Positions 301-52,856 of a stretch of DNA of 64,000 nucleotides are shown piece after piece. The stretch is from Gari tellinella. Lineage: Eukaryota; Mollusca; Bivalvia; Cardiida; Psammobiidae. Below the pieces are notes generated by a model, which was not told the DNA's origin, searched no databases, and worked only from the letters and a program-made list of their open reading frames with translations. The first letter of the stretch is position 1; each line of letters opens with the position of its first letter. Both the position numbers and the translations under genes were made by a program. The stretch lies in assembly GCA_922989275.2 (NCBI GenBank), contig OV277861.1:15524540-15588539 (forward strand), given 5' to 3'.

Positions 301-1746
301 ATGACCCATGTTATGTTAAAACCAGACTATACAACGACTAATTTAACTGAGCATAATGTAGTATCTGATCATCTTGATACTTGTAAACAATTAAAAGCTG
401 ACGTCAACATTACATGTCATAAACTTCCTACTATGTACTGGATACCAAAACTCCACAAAACATCATATAAGTCTCGTTTTATTGCTAATTCAAGTGCATG
501 TACTACTACTAAGCTTTCCAAACTTTTGACATCGTCTTTAATTAAAATCAAAGAACATGTTCAAAGGTATTGTGACAAGACTTACGATAATTCTGGACTT
601 AATCTGTTTTGGTCTATCAAAAACTCGAATGAAATTTTGACGAAGCTTGAACATAGAAATTACCAAGCTTGCAATATTAGTACGTATGACTTTTCAACAC
701 TATATACTACCTTACCTCATAATTTAATAAAAGCTAAACTTATACAACTTATTGAAAAGACTTTTGCCAGAGAAAGGAAACTATTTCTGGCGTGTAATAC
801 TGATCGTGCATATTTTACAAATGACACGGTTAAGCATTACACTATGTGGACTTGCACCGATGTCTGTAAGTCACTATCATTTCTTCTGGATAATATTTAT
901 GTACGTCTTGGGAGTACCATATACCGCCAAGTGATTGGTATCCCTATGGGTACAAACTGTGCGCCCCTTGTCGCAGACCTATTTTTGTACTGTTATGAGA
1001 GGGACTTTATGCTAAGTCTAAAACCTGATACACAGGCAGATATGATCGAAGCCTTTTACAACACATCGCGCTATCTAGATGATATTTTTAATATAGACAA
1101 CCCATTTTTTGATATGTTGTTTCCTTTTATTTACCCAAAAGAATTACGCCTTAATAAAACAAACGAGTCAAATTTATCGGCACCATTTTTAGATTTGGAT
1201 CTTTTAATAAATAACGGTATTGTTTCTTCTAAGATTTACGATAAACGAGATGATTTTGATTTTAGTATTGTAAACTATCCTCATCTAGATGGCGATGTTC
1301 CCCGTTCTACATCTTACGGGGTTTATATTTCACAACTTATTCGTTTTGCTAGGGCTTGTACCTCTGTTGAGGACTTCCACATTCGTAATAAAACTATTAC
1401 TGAAAAGCTTCTTAAACAGGGGTACAGATTTCATAAACTTCGTAAAACATTTTCTAAATTCTTTTATAGGAATCTTCCTCTCATTAACAAGTATAAATGT
1501 AACTTAAAGTCTTTTCTGCGGCAAGGTATTTCACATCCGGAGTTTTATGGTGATGTGATTTACAGACTTCGTAAGATTCTTGGACATATGCATTTTCAAA
1601 ACCTATTTGTGAAACGTATTAGATTTTTCCTCAAAAAAGATTATGATCCAACTATATTGCTGCGCACTTCACGTTTGGTTATCGATCAATCTACAATTGA
1701 TAACTATGCTTTCCTCTTTGGTTGTGCGACGACAGACAGGGCTTAG
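301..1746 (+). CDS. Penelope-like reverse transcriptase, 5'-truncated copy
   Basis: The open frame of 481 codons encodes the RT half of a PLE polyprotein. Only the codons from about 327 onward are element-derived; the first eight or so come from flanking DNA or the junction. Visible RT features are motif A with its aspartate (STYDFSTLY), the conserved GIPMGTNCAP block, and the catalytic YLDD box at residues 258-261 (nt 1072-1083). PLE RTs are known relatives of telomerase RT. The frame is intact to a TAG stop, but the endonuclease half is missing, so this copy cannot make a complete protein. It is nearly identical to residues 6-477 of the RT frame in copy 2. Expression from this copy is unlikely unless flanking sequence supplies a promoter. 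Confidence 0.9.
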   Translation: MTHVMLKPDYTTTNLTEHNVVSDHLDTCKQLKADVNITCHKLPTMYWIPKLHKTSYKSRFIANSSACTTTKLSKLLTSSLIKIKEHVQRYCDKTYDNSGLNLFWSIKNSNEILTKLEHRNYQACNISTYDFSTLYTTLPHNLIKAKLIQLIEKTFARERKLFLACNTDRAYFTNDTVKHYTMWTCTDVCKSLSFLLDNIYVRLGSTIYRQVIGIPMGTNCAPLVADLFLYCYERDFMLSLKPDTQADMIEAFYNTSRYLDDIFNIDNPFFDMLFPFIYPKELRLNKTNESNLSAPFLDLDLLINNGIVSSKIYDKRDDFDFSIVNYPHLDGDVPRSTSYGVYISQLIRFARACTSVEDFHIRNKTITEKLLKQGYRFHKLRKTFSKFFYRNLPLINKYKCNLKSFLRQGISHPEFYGDVIYRLRKILGHMHFQNLFVKRIRFFLKKDYDPTILLRTSRLVIDQSTIDNYAFLFGCATTDRA

Positions 1747-1810
1747 CACTACATGATGATGTATCTCTAAAGCCGTCCTTAACCGGGAGAGTTATGTCGG
1801 ATTTTCGTGC
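1746..1810 (+). promoter_or_regulatory. SECIS element (form 2) in the 3' UTR of copy 1
   Basis: This is identical to the SECIS at 5969-6033 in copy 2, which is described there. It starts on the last base of the TAG stop codon. In this truncated copy no in-frame TGA remains upstream, so it is a passenger. Confidence 0.85.
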
Positions 1811-2278
1811 TTTGGTTTTTCTCTCCCTCTCTGTCGTACCCTAAACCCTCCCATGTCTTACAGTTACTCGTGACTACAGACTATTCGCTTGAGTACAATT
1901 TGACCGTTGCCATAGTGGGTTATTTTTAACACGGGCTTGAATGTTTAATTCTTTCCCGTGTTACTAATAATCCTGTCAGAGAATTTTGTTGGATGTTTTA
2001 CATGTATTTACTTACTGTGCTGGCGGTCTTTTTGATTGTAAGGTTGTGGAACAGGGTTTATATTTTATGTACACTGTTCGTCTTTATAGGTGAATATAGG
2101 AGATAAGTGTGAGGTTGGGCGCCCCTAAACCCAGGTTTAACCCCCCAGTGATTGTTAATAATTAATTAATTTATAATTGATTATTGATTGCTACTGACCG
2201 TACCAAGGCGGGCTCCTATGTTCACTTAGCTTTATGTTTGTCTTGCGTGTTGTTTTCTATTTGGTGTGTGGATGAAGG

Positions 2279-2341: not shown

Positions 2342-2772
2342 TCTGCTTTAGAGATGGGTGTATTGTTTGTGTTGCGTTTCCTGCTTGAGTCTTCTTTCGT
2401 ATTTATTTGTTGCCACAATAGTGTTACTTGTGCCGTGTGGAGGCCGTAAAACGTCGCCCCGTACATTTAATCAATATTGTTATCATTCCTCCTGCAGGAG
2501 CGTGCACTTGTTGTACAACTCGTCTCTTTGGCTTTCTTTCTTGCACCGTATGGTAGGTCTCTATGTACCAATGGTCAGATGAGCTTCGGTATTGTACCGG
2601 TTCTTCATTAACTCTTTACTTTCTATTAAAGATAAGGTATGGCGATGAGTTGCTAACGTCGCACCAGTTACTTTTTTCACTATTGGAATTACTTTATTAT
2701 AAATTTCGAACTTTCTTTCTGTATAGTTATAGTCGATACATAGGGACAGGTGCTAACTTACTTCTCTTAAAC

Positions 2773-5700
2773 ATGGAACTTCAAACTAACAAAAGACTAA
2801 TAATACCCCTTACACCACTTAGAATGCACTCTGCGTGTTCTGTTCATATCCCTAGAAATACTACTAATTTTGCATCACTTAAGCCGTGCGTACAGCTAAC
2901 ACCACTTAAGCTCTTTTCGGCATCTTCTTTTCACATTCCATCTATTTCTATTAATAATTGTTTTCATAATGGTCATAAAGTGGTGCTTTCACCTCTTAAA
3001 TATTCTATTCAACGCAATAATTCTGTTTTATTACGACCACTGAACAAAAAACGTAGAGTGCATCCTATTATTGAAAAGTGCAATGCTAAGAGGTGATCGT
3101 GTTGCAATTATTTATCTTGCAAGTCTACTATACAATCAACAGTAAACGGTAGATTATTTAGTGTTGTCATAGATTCAGACATCAACTGACGAACTAACCA
3201 TATTGTATACGTGTTAACTTGAAAAGCACCTGGTTGTGGTATCCGGTATGTTGGGCAAACCGGTCGTCCTCTCAAAACTAGGTTTAATGAACATCTTCGT
3301 ACTTGTAGGAACAAAAAACTGAGGAACTTTCTGTATCAACATTTTCGGAAATCTGGACATGGATTAGATTTTATTACAATTCAACCTGTTGAACATATTA
3401 CGTATGATATAAATGCTACTAATAGTTTCAAATGTAAGGCTAGATTTATAACGGAATTAAAATGGATTAAAAATTTACAGACACCCTTTCCGTTAGGCTT
3501 GAATGATAATATATACCAATCTGGCAATATTTCTAAAGAACCTTCAATTGATATTTTTTCGATTTATTCTACACGAAAGCGTAAATCTAGATCGCATGGT
3601 ATTCGTATAAATGGAAATATTAAACGTAAATCACGTCAGTCGATTTCTATTACAGATTTGCATAATCTGCTGTTACATTCTGGTAAACATAAAATGCTTT
3701 CTCGGCTTTCTTCGTTGTCATTGTCGTCTTTAAAAGATATTGACGACAAGGCTGATGGAATAATTTTACGCACAGATCCTCTGTATTATACTGCAGGTTT
3801 AATACAAAGTTATACTCAGCATGTTCTTAGACCTCATATTGATTCTTTAAACGATCACAAAAGATATTTCATTAAGGTCCCTTTTATAAATAAAGGTATT
3901 GATTTCATAGATTTACAAAGTATTCTCCGTAACAAATATGTGATGAATGCTATTCCAAATTATTTCAAAAATCTTGAACCACCTATTATTTGTTATAAGT
4001 ATAATAAATCTGTTAGAGGGTTAATTTTTAACTACAATAAAATTGTTTCTGATCTTAAAATTCTCGAAAACACACCAGATACATGAGACTGTACCTCTTC
4101 TAAATTCTGTTACGCTCCAGTGGGTCATATTATAACTGGCCATTTTGATATCATTAAAGATAAACGCATTAGAGCGCTTTTGAGTAAAGGACCTAAATTT
4201 AGATTACCTGCCTTAATTGATTTCGATACTTGTCGCAATCATATTTCTGAAGCTTTGAATAAGTATAGTACCAATTGGTGCCACAGAGAACATGCTGAAA
4301 ATGACGCTCTTACTAAATGGAAAGAGTTAATTTTTGATATTATCGATACCCGGATTTCGTTCTATTTATCCAATAACCATCTTTTACCACCTAAACCTAA
4401 ATTTAACATTCGTCACTTAAAGAAGGGCATACAAGACTTTCATTCCAAATATGTACTCGTTCCTGCAGACAAAGCATCCAATAATGTGTTATTGTATGAC
4501 GATTACATTATGTTGATACTTTAAACCAGGAACTCGTGAATACCAATTCCTATACAACGACTAATTTAACTGAGCATAATGTAGTATCTGATCATCTTGA
4601 TACTTGTAAACAATTAAAAGCTGACGTCAACATTACATGTCATAAACTTCCTACTATGTACTGGATACCAAAACTCCACAAAACACCATATAAGTCTCGT
4701 TTTATTGCTAATTCAAGTACATGTACTACTACTAAGCTTTCCAAACTTTTGACATCGTCTTTAATTAAAATCAAAGAACATGTTCAAAGGTATTGTGACA
4801 AGACTTACGATAATTCTGGACTTAATCTGTTTTGGTCTATCAAAAACTCGAATGAAATTTTGACGAAGCTTGAACATAGAAATTACCAAGCTTGCAATAT
4901 TAGTACGTATGACTTTTCAACACTATATACTACCTTACCTCATAATTTAATAAAAGCTAAACTTATACAACTTATTGAAAAGACTTTTGCCAGAGAAAGG
5001 AAACTATTTCTGGCGTGTAATACTGATCGTGCATATTTTACAAATGACACGGTTAAGCATTACACTATGTGGACTTGCACCGATGTCTGTAAGTCACTAT
5101 CATTTCTTCTGGATAATATTTATGTACGTTTTGGGAGTACCATATACCGCCAAGTGATTGGTATCCCTATGGGTACAAACTGTGCGCCCCTTGTCGCAGA
5201 CCTATTTTTGTACTGTTATGAGAGGGACTTTATGCTAAGTCTAAAACCTGATACACAGGCAGATATGATCGAAGCCTTTAACAACACATCGCGCTATCTA
5301 GATGATATTTTTAATATAGACAACCCATTTTTTGATACGTTGTTTCCTTTTATTTACCCAAAAGAATTACGCCTTAATAAAACAAACGAGTCAAATTTAT
5401 CGGCACCATTTTTAGATTTGGATCTTTTAATAAATAACGGTATTGTTTCTTCTAAGATTTACGATAAACGAGATGATTTTGATTTTAGTATTGTAAACTA
5501 TCCTCATCTAGATGGCGATGTTCCCCGTTCTACATCTTACGGGGTTTATATTTCACAACTTATTCGTTTTGCTAGGGCTTGTACCTCTGTTGAGGACTTC
5601 CACATTCGTAATAAAACTATTACTGAAAAGCTTCTTAAACAGGGGTACAGATTTCATAAACTTCGTAAAACATTTTCTAAATTCTTTTATAGGAATCTTC

Positions 5701-5969
5701 CTCTCATTAACAAGTATAAATGTAACTTAAAGTCTTTTCTGCGGCAAGGTATTTCACATCCGGAGTTTTATGGTGATGTGATTTACAGACTTCGTAAGAT
5801 TCTTGGACATATGCATTTTCAAAACCTATTTGTGAAACGTATTAGATTTTTCCTCAAAAAAGATTATGATCCAACTTTATTGCTGCGCACTTCACGTTTG
5901 GTTATCGATCAATCTACAATTGATAACTATGCTTTCCTCTTTGGTTGTGCGACGACAGACAGGGCTTAG
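2773..5969 (+). CDS. Naiad PLE polyprotein: GIY-YIG endonuclease-RT, putative selenoprotein with one frameshift
   Basis: From ATG 2773 the frame runs to about 4510 with only four stops, all TGA, at 3094, 3187, 3220 and 4084 (codons 108, 139, 150 and 438). No TAA or TAG occurs in it. Domains in order: LxPLK-type repeats (residues about 8-100); Cys-rich segment and GIY-YIG endonuclease (about 108-245), with GIRYVGQTGRPL at 156, likely catalytic Glu 228 and a WIKNLQT...GLN tail; linker with U-D-C at 438-440; then RT. Near 4509-4511 the frame shifts, consistent with loss of one base, and continues at 4512-5969 with motif A Asp at 4911, GIPMGTNCAP and YLDD at 5295-5306. Each TGA replaces an expected Cys: KR-U-SCC, IN-U-RTN, LT-U-KAPGC, T-U-DC. 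Length is about 1065 codons. An upstream in-frame ATG at 2563 would add 70 residues; 2773 was chosen because the LxPLK homology begins just after it. The frameshift probably makes this particular copy inactive. Confidence 0.88.
3187..3498 (+). other. GIY-YIG endonuclease domain with two in-frame TGA (Sec) codons
   Basis: The translated pattern is U-R-T-N-H-I-V-Y-V-L-T-U-K-A-P-G-C-G-I-R, followed by YVGQTGRPLKTRF. It matches the usual PLE endonuclease layout of Cys, then N-x-V-Y-x-L-x-C-x-x-C, then the GIY-YIG core. The two TGA codons at 3187 and 3220 take the cysteine positions of what is normally a zinc-binding set. The domain ends with the E-L-K-W-I...L-Q-T-P-F-P-L-G-L-N block typical of PLE GIY-YIG domains. 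Confidence 0.85.
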
Positions 5970-6033
5970 CACTACATGATGATGTATCTCTAAAGCCGTC
6001 CTTAACCGGGAGAGTTATGTCGGATTTTCGTGC
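5969..6033 (+). promoter_or_regulatory. SECIS element (form 2), overlaps the stop codon
   Basis: Hand folding gives helix I GCAC/GUGC (5969-5972 with 6030-6033) plus two weaker pairs. The SECIS quartet is UGAU (5977-5980) against GGAU (6022-6025), with U-U, G-A, A-G and U-G pairs. Helix II is 11 bp (5981-5991 with 6011-6021) with one U-U mismatch and two G-U wobbles. An unpaired AAA lies at 5992-5994, and a CCG/CGG mini-helix (5996-5998 with 6007-6009) closes an 8-nt loop. The distance from quartet to AAA is 11 nt, within the known range. The extra mini-helix above the A-bulge makes it form 2. SECIS elements recruit SBP2/EFSec to recode UGA as selenocysteine, which matches the four in-frame UGAs upstream. 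Confidence 0.88.
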
Positions 6034-6856
6034 TTTGGTTTTTCTCTCCCTCTCTGTCGTACCCTAAACCCTCCCATGTCTTACAGTTACTCGTGACTAC
6101 AGACTATTCGCTTGAGTACAATTTGACCGTTGCCATAGTGGGTTATTTTTAACACGGGCTTGAATGTTTAATTCTTTCCCGTGTTACTAATAATCCTGTC
6201 AGAGAATTTTGTTGGATGTTTTACATGTATTTACTTACTGTGCTGGCGGTCTTTTTGATTGTAAGGTTGTGGAACAGGGTTTATATTTTATGTACACTGT
6301 TCGTCTTTATAGGTGAATATAGGAGATAAGTGTGAGGTTGGGCGCCCCTAAACCCAGGTTTAACCCCCCAGTGGTTGTTAATAATTAATTAATTTATAAT
6401 TGATTATTGATTGCTACTGACCGTACCAAGGCGGGCTCCTATGTTCACTTAGCTTTATGTTTGTCTTGCGTGTTGTTTTCTTTTTGGTGTGTGGATGAAG
6501 GAATGGTATTGCGTGTGTGTGGTTGTGTGTGTGTGTGTTTGTTATGGTATGGTTGTGTGTGTGTTCTGCTTTAGAGATGGGTGTATTGTTTGTGTTGCGT
6601 TTCCTGCTTGAGTCTTCTTTCGTATTTATTTGTTGAATTGCAAAACAATGTAGACAACGCCTAGCGTTCACATACTAGTCTCGGCTTATGATCAACCTCT
6701 ACAGTGTAGACCAGGTATGGCAGCTTAATACGGTACAATGTATGTGCACGTGAGCATCAAGTGAAGACAATGAATACCCTGGTCAGGCGCCGCGTCAGGT
6801 AGTCCAGACCCTTAACAATATATATACACACCTTATTTTATTGTAATTAGTACTTT

Positions 6857-13262: not shown

Positions 13263-14431
13263 TTCGATTTCGTAGGAGATTTCACCATTCCTTACCATTT
13301 AAACGCAAACGAAATGCAAACACAATACACTTAAATGTAGAAAATGACAACCTTTTGCAATTTCTTATCTTTTTTAATCTAATTTTGAAATAGTTGGGAT
13401 ATTGATGAAACCCAAGTAGTCCGGGAGTCAAGGGGTTTAACGTGGAAATGCCGGATGAACTTTTTTTCTCTGCAGTTTTCAATAGTCAAGGGGGTCCTTA
13501 TTAAGATTCAAGAGGGTGCTCGGTGATATCCCTTGAGCATTTCTCAAAATATGCTAATTAAGTCCGCCATTACTGAAATTCCGTTTATTGGCTGTAACAC
13601 ATTTATTATACACGGTAACCTCCTACAAAAGGTGTCTACACCTATGTTTTCAGGGTCTACGAACATTATAAGCACATCAGTTTTGCATTTTAATGACTCG
13701 CACTCGACAAATTACATCAATTACGCTAATGCTAATTATGTCTGCCATTACTGAAATTCCGTTTATTGGCTGTAATACATTTATTATACATGGTAACCTC
13801 CTGAAGGTGTCTACACCTATGTTTTTAGGGTCTACAAACATTATAAACACATCAGTTTTGCATTTTAATGACTCGCACTCGACTAATTACATCAATTATG
13901 CTAATTAGGTCTGAGATCATTAAAGAAATCAAGCTTATTTGGATACTGCTGGAAATATTTGACCTAATGCCATAATGTAAATGTCAATTCCTATATTGTC
14001 AAAAACTGTCTTTCAAACAATACGATAATAGTATTAATTGCATTCTTAAGGTGATTAAGATGCCATATTAGGTATTGCTGCTAAGGCAAATGGTTGAACT
14101 ACTTTACTCGGGGCATTGTTATGTCACCTGGATGGTGTACAAACTGCACGGAACTTGAATGATTCTGGATGAGCGATCGGACTAGATGAAGGGTTATGTA
14201 TATACCTAAATCTAGTTGTAACCCATATTTGGATCTAGACCAGTTGGCGGATGCGAAAAGATTACAGTTTCATAAACAAGATTTTATAAATAATCAATGT
14301 TTGTATCTTCATGGACTGCCTTCTGTAGGATCACGTCGCCTCAGAAGTCCTGTCTCAGTTAATTGCTAACATTGTATTGGAACTTTGGTTGTGAATATAA
14401 ATAATATGTTGCCCATTTTGTTAAGATTTTG

Positions 14432-17190: not shown

Positions 17191-17870
17191 TTGCGATGTT
17201 GTCCCAAGCTTTGCTTACTGCATCAACAGGATTCATAATCTTCAGACTTAGACTAACAGTGTGTTATATAGAAACATATGTTTACAGGCGAGGACCAGTT
17301 GACCGTCTTAAACGGTCTGATATTTGGAGATATAACAAAAAACCCTGAATTTCAGTAATGGCCGACCTCATTTGCATAATTTGCATAAGTTGCATATGTC
17401 CAAAACATTTAATTTTCTGAAATGATGGGTTTATCATGTTCGTTGACCCTGATAACCTGGTTACAGACACCAATTTCATCATGGTAGGATGCATACTAAT
17501 TGACATATGGCCAAATAACGGAATTTCAATAATGGCGGACCTCATTTGCATAATTTGCATTAGTTGCATTTGTTCAAAACATTTAATTTATGAAATGATG
17601 GGTTTATCATGTTTGTAGACCCTGATAACCTGGTTATAGACACCAGTTTCATCATGGTAGGGTGCATACTAATTGACATATGGCCAAATAACGGAATTTC
17701 AGTAATGGCGGGCTTAATTAGCATATTTTGAGAAATGCTCAAGGGATATCACCGGGCACCCTCTTTGATCTTGATGAGGACATCCTAGACTATTGAAAAC
17801 TGCAGAGAAAAAAAGTTCATCCGGCATTTCCAGGTTCAGCTAAATATCGGCCTTTGACTCCCGGACTAAA

Positions 17871-25206: not shown

Positions 25207-25540
25207 AGTGACAAACAGTTTTGAGTCAGAACAGACACCATGTTACAGTGGAGAATCTGTTATTCTTTCCCGTTTAAACGCAAACGTACGCAAACGCAAA
25301 GCACTAAAACGTAGAAAAGAACAACTTTTGGACAATTTTGATAATTCTTGTTTATCTTGGTGGCAAACAGTTTGGAGCCTGATCAGACGCCGGGTTACCC
25401 GGCGTCTGATCTGGCTCCAAACTGTTTGCACTGCAAATAATAGTTTTAGCGTAAACGCGTTTATTGGGAAAGAATAACAGATTCTCCACTGTACCTTGTG
25501 GCTGATCATATTTCAAACTGTTTGCCACCAAGGTTAAAAT
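25207..25540. repeat. older cassette-1 palindrome split by a family A MITE
   Basis: CAAACAGTTTTGAGTCAGAA at the left and GATCATATTTCAAACTGTTTG at the right are the two arms of one worn palindrome. They are separated by the TA-flanked MITE at 25246-25491. Confidence 0.7.
25246..25491. repeat. family A MITE (CAGTGGAGAATCTG ends, TA target)
   Basis: TA at 25244-25245 and 25492-25493. Ends are CAGTGGAGAATCTGTTATTC and its mirror, followed by CGTTTAAACGC/GCGTAAACGCG. The core is TTTGGAGCCTGATCAGACGC with a GGGTTACCC tip. Mariner-like. Confidence 0.85.
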
Positions 25541-27529: not shown

Positions 27530-27985
27530 ATCCTAATGTGCGGTGACATTGTCTGCTTTGAAATTGTTGTCTGCAAAAATTATTAAAATTTCGATTTATA
27601 CATTGTTTAGGTAAAGAAACCTAAAGACGAGTGTCAAACAGTTTGGATCCAGATCAGGGGCCCGTTTCATAAAACTTCGTACGACAAAAACGGTCGTAAG
27701 TCAAAACTTAAAAATACATTTAATTTCTGATTTCTCTATCCAATCCTGTCTTGTGACATCTCTTTGGAATCGTCTTTTCAAGACGATTCCAAAAAGATGC
27801 CACAAGACAGGATTAGATTAAGAAATAAATAATAATTGAGACTTTTATAATCTGACTTACGACAACATTTGTCGTACGAAGTTTTATGAAACGGGCCCCA
27901 GACCCCGCGTTACGCTACGTCTGATTGGGATTTTATACTGTTTTCAACAATCACTAAAGTGTCGAGCAGCAGGCAAAGGGTTACG
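27530..27985. repeat. TTAA-family MITE split by a foldback insertion
   Basis: The left half runs through CAGTTTGGATCCAGATCAG (to 27657). The right half resumes at ACCCCGCGTTACGC (27902) and ends AGCAGGCAAAGGGTTA. The inserted element is 27658-27898. Confidence 0.8.
27658..27898. repeat. GGGCCCGTTT foldback element, nested
   Basis: Mirror arms start GGGCCCGTTTCATAAAACTT and end with the reverse complement. The centre is GAATCGTC/GACGATTC. CAG flanks both sides (27655-27657 and 27899-27901) inside the host MITE. Confidence 0.85.
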
Positions 27986-31463: not shown

Positions 31464-33307
31464 AACAGAACAGAACAGAACATAATTTTATTCAGATTTG
31501 TACAAAGTACATCATCTTAGTCACATAGTAAATTCACAAACATATAACATCACGTGACAATAGTGAGGATGAATACATAAGTTAATTTTCATTGAAAGAA
31601 TGTCTTAATTTAAGAGCTTCTCTAATATATATAACTAAATTATACAAAACATGCTTATTTGATGATTTCATTAGTTCAATAAATTTAAACATAGAAGGTC
31701 TTTGAAAAAAGTATTTATTTAGATATTTTACTCTCAAGTCAACAAAACGAGGGCAGACGCATATGAAATGGAATTCGTCTTCTATGTCCCGAGAATTGCA
31801 GAGTAAACAGATTCGTTCATTCCGAATTAACCTATTCTGTGCAAATCTACCAGTTTGAATTCTAAGGGAATGCGAGGACAATCTAATTCTAGAAAAACTA
31901 CATCTTAGCGAGTAAGGTAAAATATCCAAATAACCTTCATAATCAATACTACTTTTCAGAAACTTATAAGTGTCTAAAACAGGACTACTATTGACTGAAA
32001 CATGCCACTGCTGTATAAAGTTATCGATAACTCTCTGTTTAAAAACATAAGGAAATGTCTTGATATTCAACTGATCTGAATTATAAAATGCAAATCCAAA
32101 ACCATAATTATTCAAAAGATTTTTAACGCTCGCAACCCAAGTTTTCTTCCCCGCTTCACAGTCAATGATCCCCTGTTGATACATTGATTTAATTATAATA
32201 TTCTCATTATTATTAGCTAATTTTAGCCAATACTTAATAATACTTACATAGCGTGATACATATAAAGTATAACGCCCCAATTCACCGTATACAGCATTTG
32301 AACTCGTGTTTAACCTTACACCGAGTAATCTCTTACAAAATTTCAAATGAATTCTTTCAATTTCCTTTGATTTTCCAAAACCCCATATCTCCGAGCTATA
32401 TCCTAAAATAGAGCCAACAAAGGAATCAAACAACTGGCACAGAATGTTGGGCTTTAGCTTAACTTTTTTGCAGTTATATAACAATAAATTTAATGCTTTT
32501 AAAGATTTTCCAATTAAATGTTCTTGATTTTTGGAAAAGTTACCACTGTAATTAAATACAGTACCCAAATAATTAAAATCATCAACCAAATCAATTAGTT
32601 TACCATTGTATGTCCAGGTTTCATTTCTTCGTGGTTTACCTCTTTTTCTGAACACCATAATTTTGGTTTTCTCTGTATTTACCTCCAAGCCCCAGGTATT
32701 ACAATAAGTGTATAATAAATCTAGATATTTTTGTAATTCTTCAACACTGTTAGCTAAAATTGCCATATCATCAGCAAATAACAATAAAATCAATACAATA
32801 TCATCAAACAATAAACCTGAATTAATTTCATCTTGTAGAAATAGCTCTAAGTCATCCATGAATAGAGAAACCAAGACAGGAGATATTACCTCCCCTTGCC
32901 TCAATCCAACTGCATATTCAAAATAATCAGAATAACTATTACAGTGTTTCACGCACGACTTAACTTTTTTGTACATGTCCCTAAGAATACACAGTAATTT
33001 CCCTTGAATACCTGTCCTGTAAAGCTTATACCAAAGTGCATTCCTATTAATGCTATCAAAACATTTCTTTAGGTCTACAAAACACACATACAATCTTTTG
33101 TTTTCATTTAGATATTTCTGTACAATAGAAGTAAGTATAAACATCGCATCAACAGTTGAATGTCCTTTTTTAAAGCCAAACTGGGCATCGGAGATTTTAT
33201 TGTTCTGTACACAAAAGGATTCAATTCTATTGTTCAGTATAGTGGTAAATAATTTTGACATACAGCTGACTAAAGTAATGCCTCTATAATTATCCGTGCA
33301 ACTCTTG
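31464..33307 (-). mobile_element. 5'-truncated LINE (non-LTR retrotransposon)
   Basis: On the minus strand the element runs from 33307 to 31464. It has an RT ORF, a short 3' UTR with AATAAA (about 31487-31492) and a (TTCTG)n tail of about four units at 31464-31482. It is flanked by CATG at 31460-31463 and 33308-33311, a likely 4-bp target duplication. The upstream endonuclease part is absent. It interrupts a MITE that is uninterrupted at about 42229-42503. Confidence 0.88.
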
Positions 33308-33315
33308 CATGGCAC
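31582..33315 (-). CDS. LINE reverse transcriptase ORF, 5'-truncated but open
   Basis: The 577-codon frame is open, and its first codons (M-P) come from the flanking DNA, not the element. Visible RT blocks are NYRGITLVS at residues 9-17, QFGFKKGHSTVDAMF at 45-59, motif A VDLKKCFDSIN with Asp 81, GLRQGEVISPVL at 137-148 and the catalytic FADD at 180-183. A C-terminal C-x2-C-x9-H-x4-C knuckle (CLLCNS...HFICVC) follows the thumb region. The set is typical of CR1/Jockey-like LINE proteins; I cannot name the clade with certainty. The intact frame implies a recent insertion, but loss of the N-terminal endonuclease means it is not autonomous. Confidence 0.88.
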   Translation of the reverse strand: MPCKSCTDNYRGITLVSCMSKLFTTILNNRIESFCVQNNKISDAQFGFKKGHSTVDAMFILTSIVQKYLNENKRLYVCFVDLKKCFDSINRNALWYKLYRTGIQGKLLCILRDMYKKVKSCVKHCNSYSDYFEYAVGLRQGEVISPVLVSLFMDDLELFLQDEINSGLLFDDIVLILLLFADDMAILANSVEELQKYLDLLYTYCNTWGLEVNTEKTKIMVFRKRGKPRRNETWTYNGKLIDLVDDFNYLGTVFNYSGNFSKNQEHLIGKSLKALNLLLYNCKKVKLKPNILCQLFDSFVGSILGYSSEIWGFGKSKEIERIHLKFCKRLLGVRLNTSSNAVYGELGRYTLYVSRYVSIIKYWLKLANNNENIIIKSMYQQGIIDCEAGKKTWVASVKNLLNNYGFGFAFYNSDQLNIKTFPYVFKQRVIDNFIQQWHVSVNSSPVLDTYKFLKSSIDYEGYLDILPYSLRCSFSRIRLSSHSLRIQTGRFAQNRLIRNERICLLCNSRDIEDEFHFICVCPRFVDLRVKYLNKYFFQRPSMFKFIELMKSSNKHVLYNLVIYIREALKLRHSFNEN

Positions 33316-39207: not shown

Positions 39208-40263
39208 TTAATTAACTAGCAGATCGTATCTGCAAGGAAGGTACTTTATGCCATATTTAGAGCAAATTTTACTTAGATATTTGCTAAATCGTATCTAGCA
39301 ATCATTTTTAAAAACATGTTAAACGTCTCTAAATTAGCTTTTTAAACAATTAAATGGATGAAAATTTCTATTAAACGTTCCTCAATAATGTATGTCACAT
39401 GCGCTGCAAAAATGACCGACATTCACCGATGCATGCTTCGAAAATTGGAAAAAGAAGTTTAGGGTCGGAGGGAAAAACTAGGGTCGGTCGGGCTACCGGA
39501 AACGCGTGTAATGTTTTATTTTGCCTAATGTTTTGCCTGTTAATGCCGTCAATACTGACATTTGAAAATAGTTTGGATCCTGATCATACTCTTCGTAACG
39601 TGGTGTCTAAAGTTTTTCGTATAGGGGCGGCCATCTACATGTACATGTATACGTAACGTGACTGTCCATACGGGATATTTTACTGTCGATGAAAACCTAT
39701 GAATTTCTTGTTTGTTACAATGATTCGAGGGGAATTCTGATTTGATCGGAACCTAAAGTGTATATCTATGGAATTGTATGACTGTTATGCTCGATATTGA
39801 CGTCTTAAATATTGTACAGTAGTAGAATTTGCTATATCGGCACAGGACTCGCCCGTGTCCTTACGTCAGAACATCGGCCTTTTCAGTCGCAGATGCAGTT
39901 ACTATTGAAATCGCACGATTACAGTTAATTTCATGATATGACGTTATGGAAGGTTATTATGTTAGCTAGACAGAAATGCAACAAAAGTGTTTTTTCATTA
40001 ATTGTTATTCACGATATTACACGTTTTGTTGAGGTAGGGCGAGAGAAAACTGAAAATCAGTTGCATCCCTTGTCTCTTCATATACCTTTTGTCACAAGTA
40101 TTTTGAAATGTATCGTGTCGGGTCCCTGTGACATATAGTGCCTGTTAAAGTACGATTGATATCTAATCAAAAGCCGCCACACTGTGCATCGGATAATGCT
40201 TCAAACATCATGTCTAAATATCTAAAGGCAAATTGTACTTTAACATGTAGACATTCGTATCTG
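39208..40263. other. 1-kb stretch with one worn cassette arm
   Basis: AATAGTTTGGATCCTGATC at about 39565-39585 is a lone cassette-1 arm. Nothing else was recognised. Confidence 0.45.
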
Positions 40264-40487
40264 GGGCCCGTTTCATAAAACATCTTAAGTCAAAACATTA
40301 AAAAACATTTAATCTCTGATTTCTCTATCTAATCCTGCCTTGTAACATCTTTTTGGAATCGTCTTTTCAAGACGATTCCAAAATGATGTCACAAGACAGG
40401 ATTAGTTGGAGAAATAAATAATAATTGATACTTTTATAATCTGACTTACGACAACATTTGTCGTAAGAAGTTTTATGAAACGGGCCC
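40264..40487. repeat. GGGCCCGTTT foldback element
   Basis: GGGCCCGTTTCATAAAACAT and its mirror. The centre is GAATCGTCTTTTCAAGACGATTC. Flanks read CTG and CAG. Confidence 0.85.
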
Positions 40488-40812
40488 CAGGACAATTGTA
40501 GTACTATTAAGCGACACGTTTCTGTCTTTGACATGTGTTGATAACCTAAATGCGCCGATGGCCTCAATCATATGCTAATGCTTTATCATAAACAGAAAAG
40601 GTCATTGGTGACATTTCCCCAGTGCTTCACTACCATGGTATTGACGGGAGTTTAAGAAATATTTATGAATGGAATATAGAGCTAATTAGTACGCATGATT
40701 GGTTATTCTATTCATGTTGTACTGCACTTTTAATATATTGTGTATATTACCACGAATTATATTAAAACATTTCTGTTATCAAAAAAGAGATTTTTTATAA
40801 TTTAATTTGATC

Positions 40813-45063: not shown

Positions 45064-45168
45064 TACAGTATTCTGATAACCTAATGAAAATAAGGCCGGA
45101 ATTCAAGCCGTGCTTCTATTCTTTTTGTACGCTGCAATGCATTAAGCAAATGGGGATAACTGTTCTTA

Positions 45169-45414
45169 CAGTGGAGAATCTGTTATTCTTTCCCGTTTAA
45201 ACGCAAACTTACGCAAACGCAAAGCACTAAAACGTAGAAAAGAACAACTTTTGGACAATTCTGATAATTCTTGTTTATCTTGGTGGCAAACAATTTGGAG
45301 CCTGATCAGACGCCGGGTTACCCGGCGTCTGATCAGGCTCCAAACTGTTTGCACTGCAAATAATAGTTTTAGCGTAAACGCGTTTATTGGGAAAGAATAA
45401 CAGATTCTCCACTG
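45169..45414. repeat. family A MITE, best copy
   Basis: TA at 45167-45168 and 45415-45416. Complete CAGTGGAGAATCTG ends and an unbroken cassette-1 palindrome with tip CCGGGTTACCCGG. Confidence 0.9.
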
Positions 45415-45416
45415 TA

Positions 45417-49721: not shown

Positions 49722-49977
49722 CATGGCTGCAATAAGTTTACATGAAAAATACTAAGATTTCCAAATTTGCATTTTTCAAGTGCGAAATTACGAATCGTAC
49801 CTTTACCCTATAGCCTGTTTCTAGTTTTGTTGACACGTTACTACTTAAAGCAGGCTGGAAGTAAAGCAGAATGCGCCTTATGGCGCATTCTGCTTTACTT
49901 TCACCCTGTTTTAAGCTACATGTTCTAGAAAAGAAAATCCGAAGATTTAGGAAAAGTCCGGAGAAATGGCTGCCCTG
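49722..49977. repeat. CAGGGCTGCC MITE (inverted) with cassette 2 and 6-bp duplication
   Basis: The right end reads GAGAAATGGCTGCCCTG; the left end CATGGCTGCAATAAG is worn. CATGTT flanks both sides (49716-49721 and 49978-49983). The core palindrome is complete around GCGCCTTATGGCGC. Confidence 0.82.
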
Positions 49978-51266: not shown

Positions 51267-51873
51267 AGTGCTCCCTCCCTACTTATCTCCTTACATAATG
51301 CTTTACCGCTGTTTCCTAAGACAATTATATCTACCCGTTTCGCTGTTGCAATATCGTGTGCTTCCAATTGTCGTCTGCTGCTTTTTCTCAAAAATACATA
51401 TTGGATATTTTGACAAAAAGTTATGATGGCGAGTGTAACACAGCTTGAATCCAGATCAAACGCCGCGATATGCGGCGTCTGATCTGGATTGAAGGCGTTT
51501 GCATGTAAGTCAAATCGAGCTCAGCACTCTTAGGGCATTAATTCCGCTTCCTCAAAAGACTCGCTCAAAAACAACACACACATTCGTTGATTCTTATATG
51601 CTGTTCTTGTAGAGAGGTACAGTGGAGAATCTGTTATTCTTTCCCAATAAACGCGTTTACGCTAAAACTATTATTTGCAGTGCAAACAGTTTGGAGCCAG
51701 ATCAGACGCCGGGTAACCCGGCGTCTGATCAGGCTCCGAACTGTTTGCCACCAAGATAAACATGAATTATCAGAATTGTAAAAAAGTTGTACTTTTCTAC
51801 GTTTTAGTGCTTTGCGTTTGCGTACGTTTGCGTTTAAACGGGAAAGAATAACAGATTCTCCACTGTATCACTG
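51267..51873. repeat. family B MITE with a family A MITE inside
   Basis: The left part (AGTGCTCCCTCCCTAC, core AACAGCTTGAATCCAGATC) reaches TGTAGAGAGG. The right end resumes after the insert as TCACTG-TA. Confidence 0.75.
51620..51865. repeat. family A MITE, nested, opposite orientation
   Basis: TA at 51618-51619 and 51866-51867, complete CAGTGGAGAATCTG ends, core tip CCGGGTAACCCGG. Confidence 0.88.
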
Positions 51874-51890
51874 TATATCATGATTATCTG

Positions 51891-52130
51891 GGGCCCGTTT
51901 CATAAAACTTCGTACGACAAATGTTGTTGTAAGTCAGATTATAAAAGTCTCAATATTTTTTATTTCTCCATCTAATCCAGTCTTGTGACATCTTTTTGGA
52001 ATCGTCTTGAAAAGACGATTCCAAAAATATGTCACAAGACCGGATTGAATAGAGAAATAAGAAATTAAATTCATTTTAAAGTTTTGACTTACGATCGATT
52101 TTTTCGTACGAAGTTTTATGAAACGGGCCC
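51891..52130. repeat. GGGCCCGTTT foldback element
   Basis: Complete mirror arms around GGAATCGTCTTGAAAAGACG. Flanks CTG and CAG. Confidence 0.85.
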
Positions 52131-52132
52131 CA

Positions 52133-52856
52133 GGCTCCTATGTGAGTCCTCTTATATTATATTAAATTAATTACCAGTTTGCGGAATTTTGTAAAAACAA
52201 ATAATATCTAGTTCAAGTGTGACTGATATTAGACAAACTCACATATTATGTCTTTCTAAACAAACACTTACCTGTAGTTATGCAAACCGTATTATTCTCC
52301 GTCGACAACTGTAAGCATTAGTTGTTCGGAGTCATCGCTCGGCGGAATGGCAACTCTTTACCCATTCTCATGCTCAGCCACTTCTAAAGAAATTTGCAAA
52401 TCGTTAAGATAATTAGACTAACTGTTTTGTCACAAGTATACACATTTCTCTCAACTATATCTTACCATGAACTTTAGAAATGTGAAACAATGCCACATAC
52501 TAACTTACCAAGATAACTAGAACTTAGTGTATTATAAAGATAAAACATTGGCACTTCATAACATTACAGTATGGATTCGTTCGACAAAAACTAGGTCGAG
52601 TTATTGAATTTTAACTAAAGAACTACTGTAGGTACAACTTATAACGATTGCGAGATATCGAGATTCGCCTGTTTTATATTGTAGACTACTTCTCAGAAAA
52701 TCTTTCTTTACAATATTTTTAATGACAACAAGAAACAGTCTACTATATATCATGTATCGTATACTATTTAATCATTGCCATTAATTTGCCCCCGGCATTC
52801 ATGCTGTTTTCCGTTTCAGGAATAATGAGTATTATGTGGTACGTATAATTGTATTT
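52133..52856. other. 0.7-kb stretch, nothing recognised
   Basis: No feature could be supported. Confidence 0.4.

Follow-up and report, generated by a model that had tools for sequence, protein, structure and literature searches.

The window, the whole 64,000-nucleotide stretch of Gari tellinella DNA that was analyzed, carries a tandem of a retroelement on its forward (+) strand. The full unit is 4223 bp long (positions 2413 to 6635), with bounds taken from the tandem repeat spacing of 4223, and is preceded head to tail by a 5′-truncated copy (327 to 2412) that retains most of the reverse transcriptase (RT) and the 3′ untranslated region (UTR), an arrangement that is pLTR-like. The truncated copy is 99.57% identical to positions 4550 to 6635 over 2086 nt, and the differences between the two copies comprise six nonsynonymous, no synonymous, and three UTR changes. 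Within the full unit, a coding stretch at 2773 to 4485 encodes an N-terminal region, a GIY-YIG endonuclease (EN), and a CxC linker, with four TGA and no TAA or TAG codons. It is followed by an 11-nt frameshift zone (4486 to 4496) and by the RT (4500 to 5966), which has no TGA and ends at the stop codon TAG (5967 to 5969). The EN is thus N-terminal to the RT, and in the window copy the two sit in different frames.

A Pfam match placed the GIY-YIG catalytic domain at 3199 to 3354 (protein residues 213 to 264). Structural comparison with VIA-align matched residues 211 to 318 to I-TevI, the stronger of two I-TevI matches; Foldseek alone returned nothing with an E value under 0.001, and its top match was I-TevI at an E value of 0.62. 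A similarity search with the RT gave 3729 proteins with an E value of ≤0.001, of which the best 120 were listed, and some ORFs similar to the window RT carry Pfam PF00078/PF26215. A Pfam scan of the window RT itself gave no match, nor did a PDB sequence search using the RT alignment. Taken together, the N-terminal GIY-YIG domain, the CxC linker, the RT, and the pLTR-like tandem fit a Naiad-type (N-terminal EN+) Penelope-like element (PLE). Canonical Penelope/Poseidon PLEs, such as the Anolis PAc element, share the PLE RT and the GIY-YIG EN, but in the portion of text available for that element (PMC11167929) the EN lies at the C terminus and there is a hammerhead ribozyme, whereas the EN of the window element is N-terminal. 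No hammerhead ribozyme was matched by Rfam near the element up to an E value of 5 or in the 64 kb up to an E value of 2, a miss that is no proof of absence. No microsatellite was seen in the short flanks of the element, at this one insertion.

Other repeats occupy the window. A palindromic family of foldback or MITE-like form has copies about 78 to 91% alike at 27650 to 27902, 40261 to 40491, 51888 to 52134, and 1 to 124, the last of which sits just upstream of the PLE tandem. A near-perfect hairpin at 49835 to 49925 (z −11.2) gave an Rfam mir-26 match below threshold and is probably not a microRNA gene but a foldback element, because it is one of an inverted-repeat family of which the window holds several copies. 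An interspersed repeat at 25241 to 25496, 45167 to 45416, and 51615 to 51870 occurs in inverted orientation, and the 97% likeness of its copies suggests recent activity. On the reverse (−) strand, a 577-amino-acid ORF (31582 to 33315) that is open in the ordinary code matches RVT_1 (E value of 5e-37) and probably encodes a LINE-type reverse transcriptase. Tandem arrays of about 175-bp and 173-bp repeats, at 13439 to 13905 and 17347 to 17836, overlap an inverted repeat pair (82%).

The initial annotation of this DNA had reported a PLE endonuclease frame, starting at 2563, with four TGA codons and no TAA or TAG. The pattern of stops was confirmed, as was the open run, which extends for 653 codons from 2563 to 4521 before a TAA at 4522 and contains TGA only at 3094, 3187, 3220, and 4084. 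The five other frames over the same stretch hold 31 to 85 stops each, of mixed types. The start did not stand. Judging by the alignments, the 2563 start is merely mechanical, because the homology to relatives begins near the ATG at 2773; homologs align from residues 67 (P0044), 78 (P0030), and 108 (P0033) of the 2563 frame.

Residues at the TGA sites were compared in a Cys-type set of 20 rows, consisting of P0176 to P0194 (19 of the 35 proteins from a search with a Cys-type query) and P0053. TGA could not appear in these rows, because a Cys-type query found them as ORFs without stops. In most rows a single ORF spans both EN and RT, with P0181, P0188, P0192 to P0194, and P0053 being partial, and the set excludes P0195 to P0210, which align over 10 to 28% of the query and resemble canonical PLEs. 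Counts were taken from a MAFFT alignment, ungapped rows only. Cysteine was found at site 1 (3094 to 3096; residue 178, the second Cys of a Cx4Cx2C motif) in 17/17 rows, at site 2 (3187 to 3189; residue 209) in 18/18, at site 3 (3220 to 3222; residue 220) in 19/19, and at site 4 (4084 to 4086; residue 508, the first Cys of the CxC linker motif) in 20/20. We conclude that, as originally proposed, all four TGA codons of the EN frame lie at Cys positions.

The sites belong to recognizable motifs. Sites 1 and 2 fall in a Cx4Cx2C...C cluster, site 3 in the CCHH-type site of the GIY-YIG domain, and site 4 in the CxC linker, which reads U508-x-C510 in the window and has both C508 and C510 in 20/20 Cys-type relatives. 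We take the CCHH motif of the window endonuclease to be U220, C225, H260, and H266, with site 3 presumably its first ligand. In Cys-type relatives the four CCHH positions are C in 19/19, C in 19/19, H in 20/20, and H in 15/20 (C in the other 5).

The earlier count of four TGA codons holds for the EN frame, but the total is five, as a TGA at 4497 to 4499, in the RT frame at the RT start, had been overlooked. Its position is Cys in 20/20 Cys-type relatives. Eleven bases separate AATAAT (4480 to 4485) from this TGA, where relatives have four codons in an NN-x4-site spacing. On this comparison, TGA 4497 is predicted to be a fifth Cys/Sec site, with a one-base shift just before it, between 4486 and 4496. 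The ORFs of 38 of the 54 EN relatives end immediately before site 5, and 17 ORFs (from the EN set plus the best 120 of 3729 in the RT set) read through it, 10 with C and 7 with W. A programmed frameshift at 4486 to 4496 was considered and rejected: the shift looks like a lesion, because the 17 relatives read the junction in a single frame. P0041 and P0030 also look frame-shifted near the EN/RT junction, with details that differ, and the 17 others do not. The one-base shift separates the EN and RT frames, and therefore the window copy is broken. We conclude that the window copy as it stands cannot make a joined EN+RT protein.

A copy already broken by a frameshift might simply be decayed, its stops being ordinary nonsense mutations that are TGA by chance, and several codons can become TGA by a single substitution. 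The distribution of the codons argues otherwise. Under a decay model of single substitutions in which ~30% of stops are TGA, the probability that 4/4 stops would be TGA is about 0.008, and under random single-step routes the probability that 4/4 TGA would fall at the eight conserved Cys codons (8/72 routes) is about 1.5e-4. The EN half contains 19 Cys/TGA codons, 8 of them in columns that are 88 to 100% Cys in Cys-type relatives and 11 in columns that are at most 12% Cys; all four TGA codons are among the 8 of 19 (P = 0.018), and no codon at the unconserved positions is TGA. Conserved cysteines that remain Cys in the window copy are 173, 181, 225, and 510. Moreover, relatives show W, C, or an ORF end at these sites, and a SECIS is present (both described below). 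We conclude that random decay is a poor fit, in agreement with the initial annotation, and we regard it as extremely improbable.

In relatives beyond the Cys-type set, several of the sites appear as tryptophan. Gene calling under genetic code 4 renders TGA as W; TGA codons of the EN half were inspected at the DNA level in the window copy alone, and W in relatives is known from proteins. Relatives bearing W at sites 2 to 5 have an identity of about 41 to 66%. P0030, P0033, and P0045 have W at sites 2, 3, and 4 (P0033 also at site 5), P0044 has W at sites 2 and 3, and P0046, P0047, P0136, P0142, and P0169 have W at sites 4 and 5. Site 2 is W in 5/5 code-4 relatives. At site 1, by comparison, 5/5 code-4 relatives covering the site have Cys, which leaves the window as the one sequence in which TGA was observed at site 1. 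Among eight EN relatives covering site 3 there were 4 W, 3 C, and 1 L, the L belonging to the degenerate relative P0052 (K in another alignment). Site 4 was C in 39 and W in 8 of 47 covering EN relatives, and four further ORFs stop just before it.

Counts from BLASTP were less clean than those from MAFFT. In the Cys-type query search set, site 1 gave 28 C, 1 F, and 1 V. Site 5 gave 2 W, 1 C, and 1 D in the EN search set; 9 C, 4 W, and 1 I in the RT search set (best 120 of 3729); and 13 C, 2 D, and 1 S in the Cys-type query search set, such that D, I, or S occurred in five proteins altogether. The odd letters were provisionally taken as alignment edges or canonical PLEs. Cys/Sec conservation in relatives, on which the original proposal depended, was found at the protein level: the sites hold Cys, W, or an ORF end, with few exceptions. 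We conclude that W at sites 2 to 5 in relatives is probably TGA read by table 4 and that the set of Sec sites seems to vary among relatives.

A tree of site 4 (62 rows) placed U508 in 7/62 rows with four changes, three of which are forced by supported branches. The tree is biased, because ORFs with TGA at 508 are shortened and leave the length range of the search. Subject to that bias in ORF length, Cys and Sec appear to have been exchanged repeatedly at site 4, with at least three changes.

Open frames alone do not distinguish Sec from a reassigned UGA, because table-4-like gene calls yield long ORFs in relatives. Such ORFs would be consistent with UGA being read as something other than Sec, by a reassigned code or by generic readthrough (e.g., as Trp). 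In Cys-type relatives, however, all five sites are Cys and not Trp. Moreover, the EN frame uses four TGG codons for Trp, the RT stop is TAG, and a SECIS of canonical form lies at the end of the ORF. We consider non-Sec decoding of these codons to be very improbable.

The SECIS-like element is of type 2 and spans 5968 to 6034, with AUGA at 5976 to 5979, an AAA apex at 5992 to 5994, and GA at 6023 to 6024. Rfam RF00031 (SECIS_1) matches it end to end with 30.2 bits (E value of 0.0077 in 7.5 kb), which falls below the gathering score of 35. The upstream truncated copy carries a duplicate at 1745 to 1811 (+ strand; RF00031, 30.2 bits), and the two are the sole SECIS matches over the 64-kb window up to an E value of 2. 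The predicted fold consists of helix I, an internal loop in which AUGA faces GA, an 11-pair stem with one mismatch, the AAA apex, and a small extra stem; its energy is not exceptional (z −1.46, with 16/200 shuffles as good). A grammar of the canonical SECIS form, composed after the window SECIS had been seen, matched only two sites across both strands of the 64 kb, at the same place in both copies, and one site in 20 resampled 64-kb sequences scanned on one strand each.

The SECIS overlaps the end of the ORF, an unusual detail of this element. The Rfam match begins inside the stop codon TAG, and the next in-frame stop is the TAA at 5991, that is, the apical UAAA of the SECIS. One relative, P0137 (95% identity over 300 residues), is without a stop at the TAG position and has a tail of 14 residues, exactly long enough to reach the TAA. 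Tails were surveyed in 122 RT ORFs (the best 120 of 3729 plus P0046 and P0047), of which 87 had a recognizable tail. Within this survey, 41 tails stop after six residues, as in the window, and 36 reach tail position 10. Met and then a residue whose codon begins with A were found from position 10 in 28/36 (27 tails of length 14 and 1 of length 12), and the 8 tails of length 10 have no Met there. All 27 of the 14-residue tails, which represent 14 distinct sequences with many near-copies, place Met at the AUGA position and then Met, Thr, or Asn, and AUGA is therefore forced in the DNA. We conclude from these proteins that some members of the family seem to use the 5′ strand of the SECIS as coding sequence and to draw its apex from the stop codon.

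A scan of genome contigs found two relative loci, both Naiad-like sequences in bacterial contigs. The first, L001 (824 to 3817 of a Flavobacteriales metagenome-assembled genome [MAG] contig), encodes P0176 and shares its domain order with the window element, with 27% identity in the EN and 35% in the RT. It differs in having Cys codons at all five sites (read as DNA), an uninterrupted 997-amino-acid ORF, and no SECIS match by Rfam up to an E value of 1. The second, L002 (near 6001 to 6486 of a Bathymodiolus mussel symbiont MAG contig), is a fragment with TGT at site 5. Both probably stem from animal DNA that ended up in the bins. Scans of IMG/VR with the EN, the EN alignment, the RT, and the RT alignment found no relative.

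We conclude that the element is very probably a Naiad-type PLE in which a single ORF encodes a selenoprotein, with Sec inserted at UGA codons via a SECIS at the ORF end. In the mechanism that we propose, the RNA would be translated with Sec at five UGAs through that SECIS, and the protein would then nick DNA via the GIY-YIG domain and copy its own RNA by target-primed reverse transcription, as is suggested by its family. Of this picture, the codons, the Cys sites, the domains, and the SECIS-like sequence were observed, whereas Sec incorporation, metal binding, and mobility are predicted. The full EN+RT protein would be made only when all five UGAs are decoded, because every UGA precedes the RT core. 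After the UGAs, the RT frame has its first Met at 4656; unless that codon serves as an internal start, production of the RT should require Sec decoding.

The position of all UGAs before the RT core, and the provision of one SECIS for five sites, could also indicate that the UGAs act mainly as regulated stops, with most translation ending early and rare Sec readthrough limiting RT output. Processivity is low when UGAs are many, which would suit such a role. Regulated stopping nonetheless leaves the strict Cys conservation at every site unexplained, and it is compatible with Sec insertion rather than an exclusive alternative to it. As the main role of the UGAs we think it very unlikely. If the element encodes a selenoprotein as we propose, Sec at the likely metal-site cysteines may either be chemistry that is tolerated and maintained by purifying selection or serve a redox role. 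A more speculative extension, which we hold only tentatively and think rather doubtful, is a selenium-gated retrotransposon in which Sec takes the place of some of the strictly conserved Cys in each putative metal site (178/209, 220, 508, and site 5), the RT needs five Sec decodings, and the SECIS lies inside the ORF end.

Several UGAs are decoded in one mRNA in multi-Sec proteins of the Selenoprotein P type. Multi-UGA decoding would be common to both systems, but those proteins are unrelated to the window element, in which Sec would stand in for cysteines of a mobile element that putatively bind metal. Selenoprotein Naiads were reportedly described in clams and spiders by Craig, Yushenova, Rodriguez, and Arkhipova in 2021. 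A literature search by title and abstract start found no paper on Sec in PLEs, Craig et al. 2021 being outside its reach. The Naiad clade, including the selenoprotein Naiads, shares with the window element the GIY-YIG domain before the RT, the CxC linker, the pLTR-like tandem, and multiple Sec at Cys positions. Consistent with the original proposal of a multi-Sec PLE of a known class, the element combines an N-terminal GIY-YIG, a CxC linker, and TGA codons at Cys sites, to which a SECIS-like element can now be added. We conclude that selenoprotein Naiads were already reported and that the window element adds a well-supported further member to this known invertebrate family.

Mobile elements that require selenium are rare. 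The locus offers a clean set of parts for tests: five Cys/Sec sites, for which a Cys-type control exists, a compact SECIS that runs across the ORF end, and a family whose members seem to vary in their Sec sites. It opens the questions of why Sec replaces structural, probably metal-binding, cysteines, whether, with a SECIS in place, the change from Cys to Sec acts as a ratchet, and whether transposition may be controlled by the selenium supply of the host.
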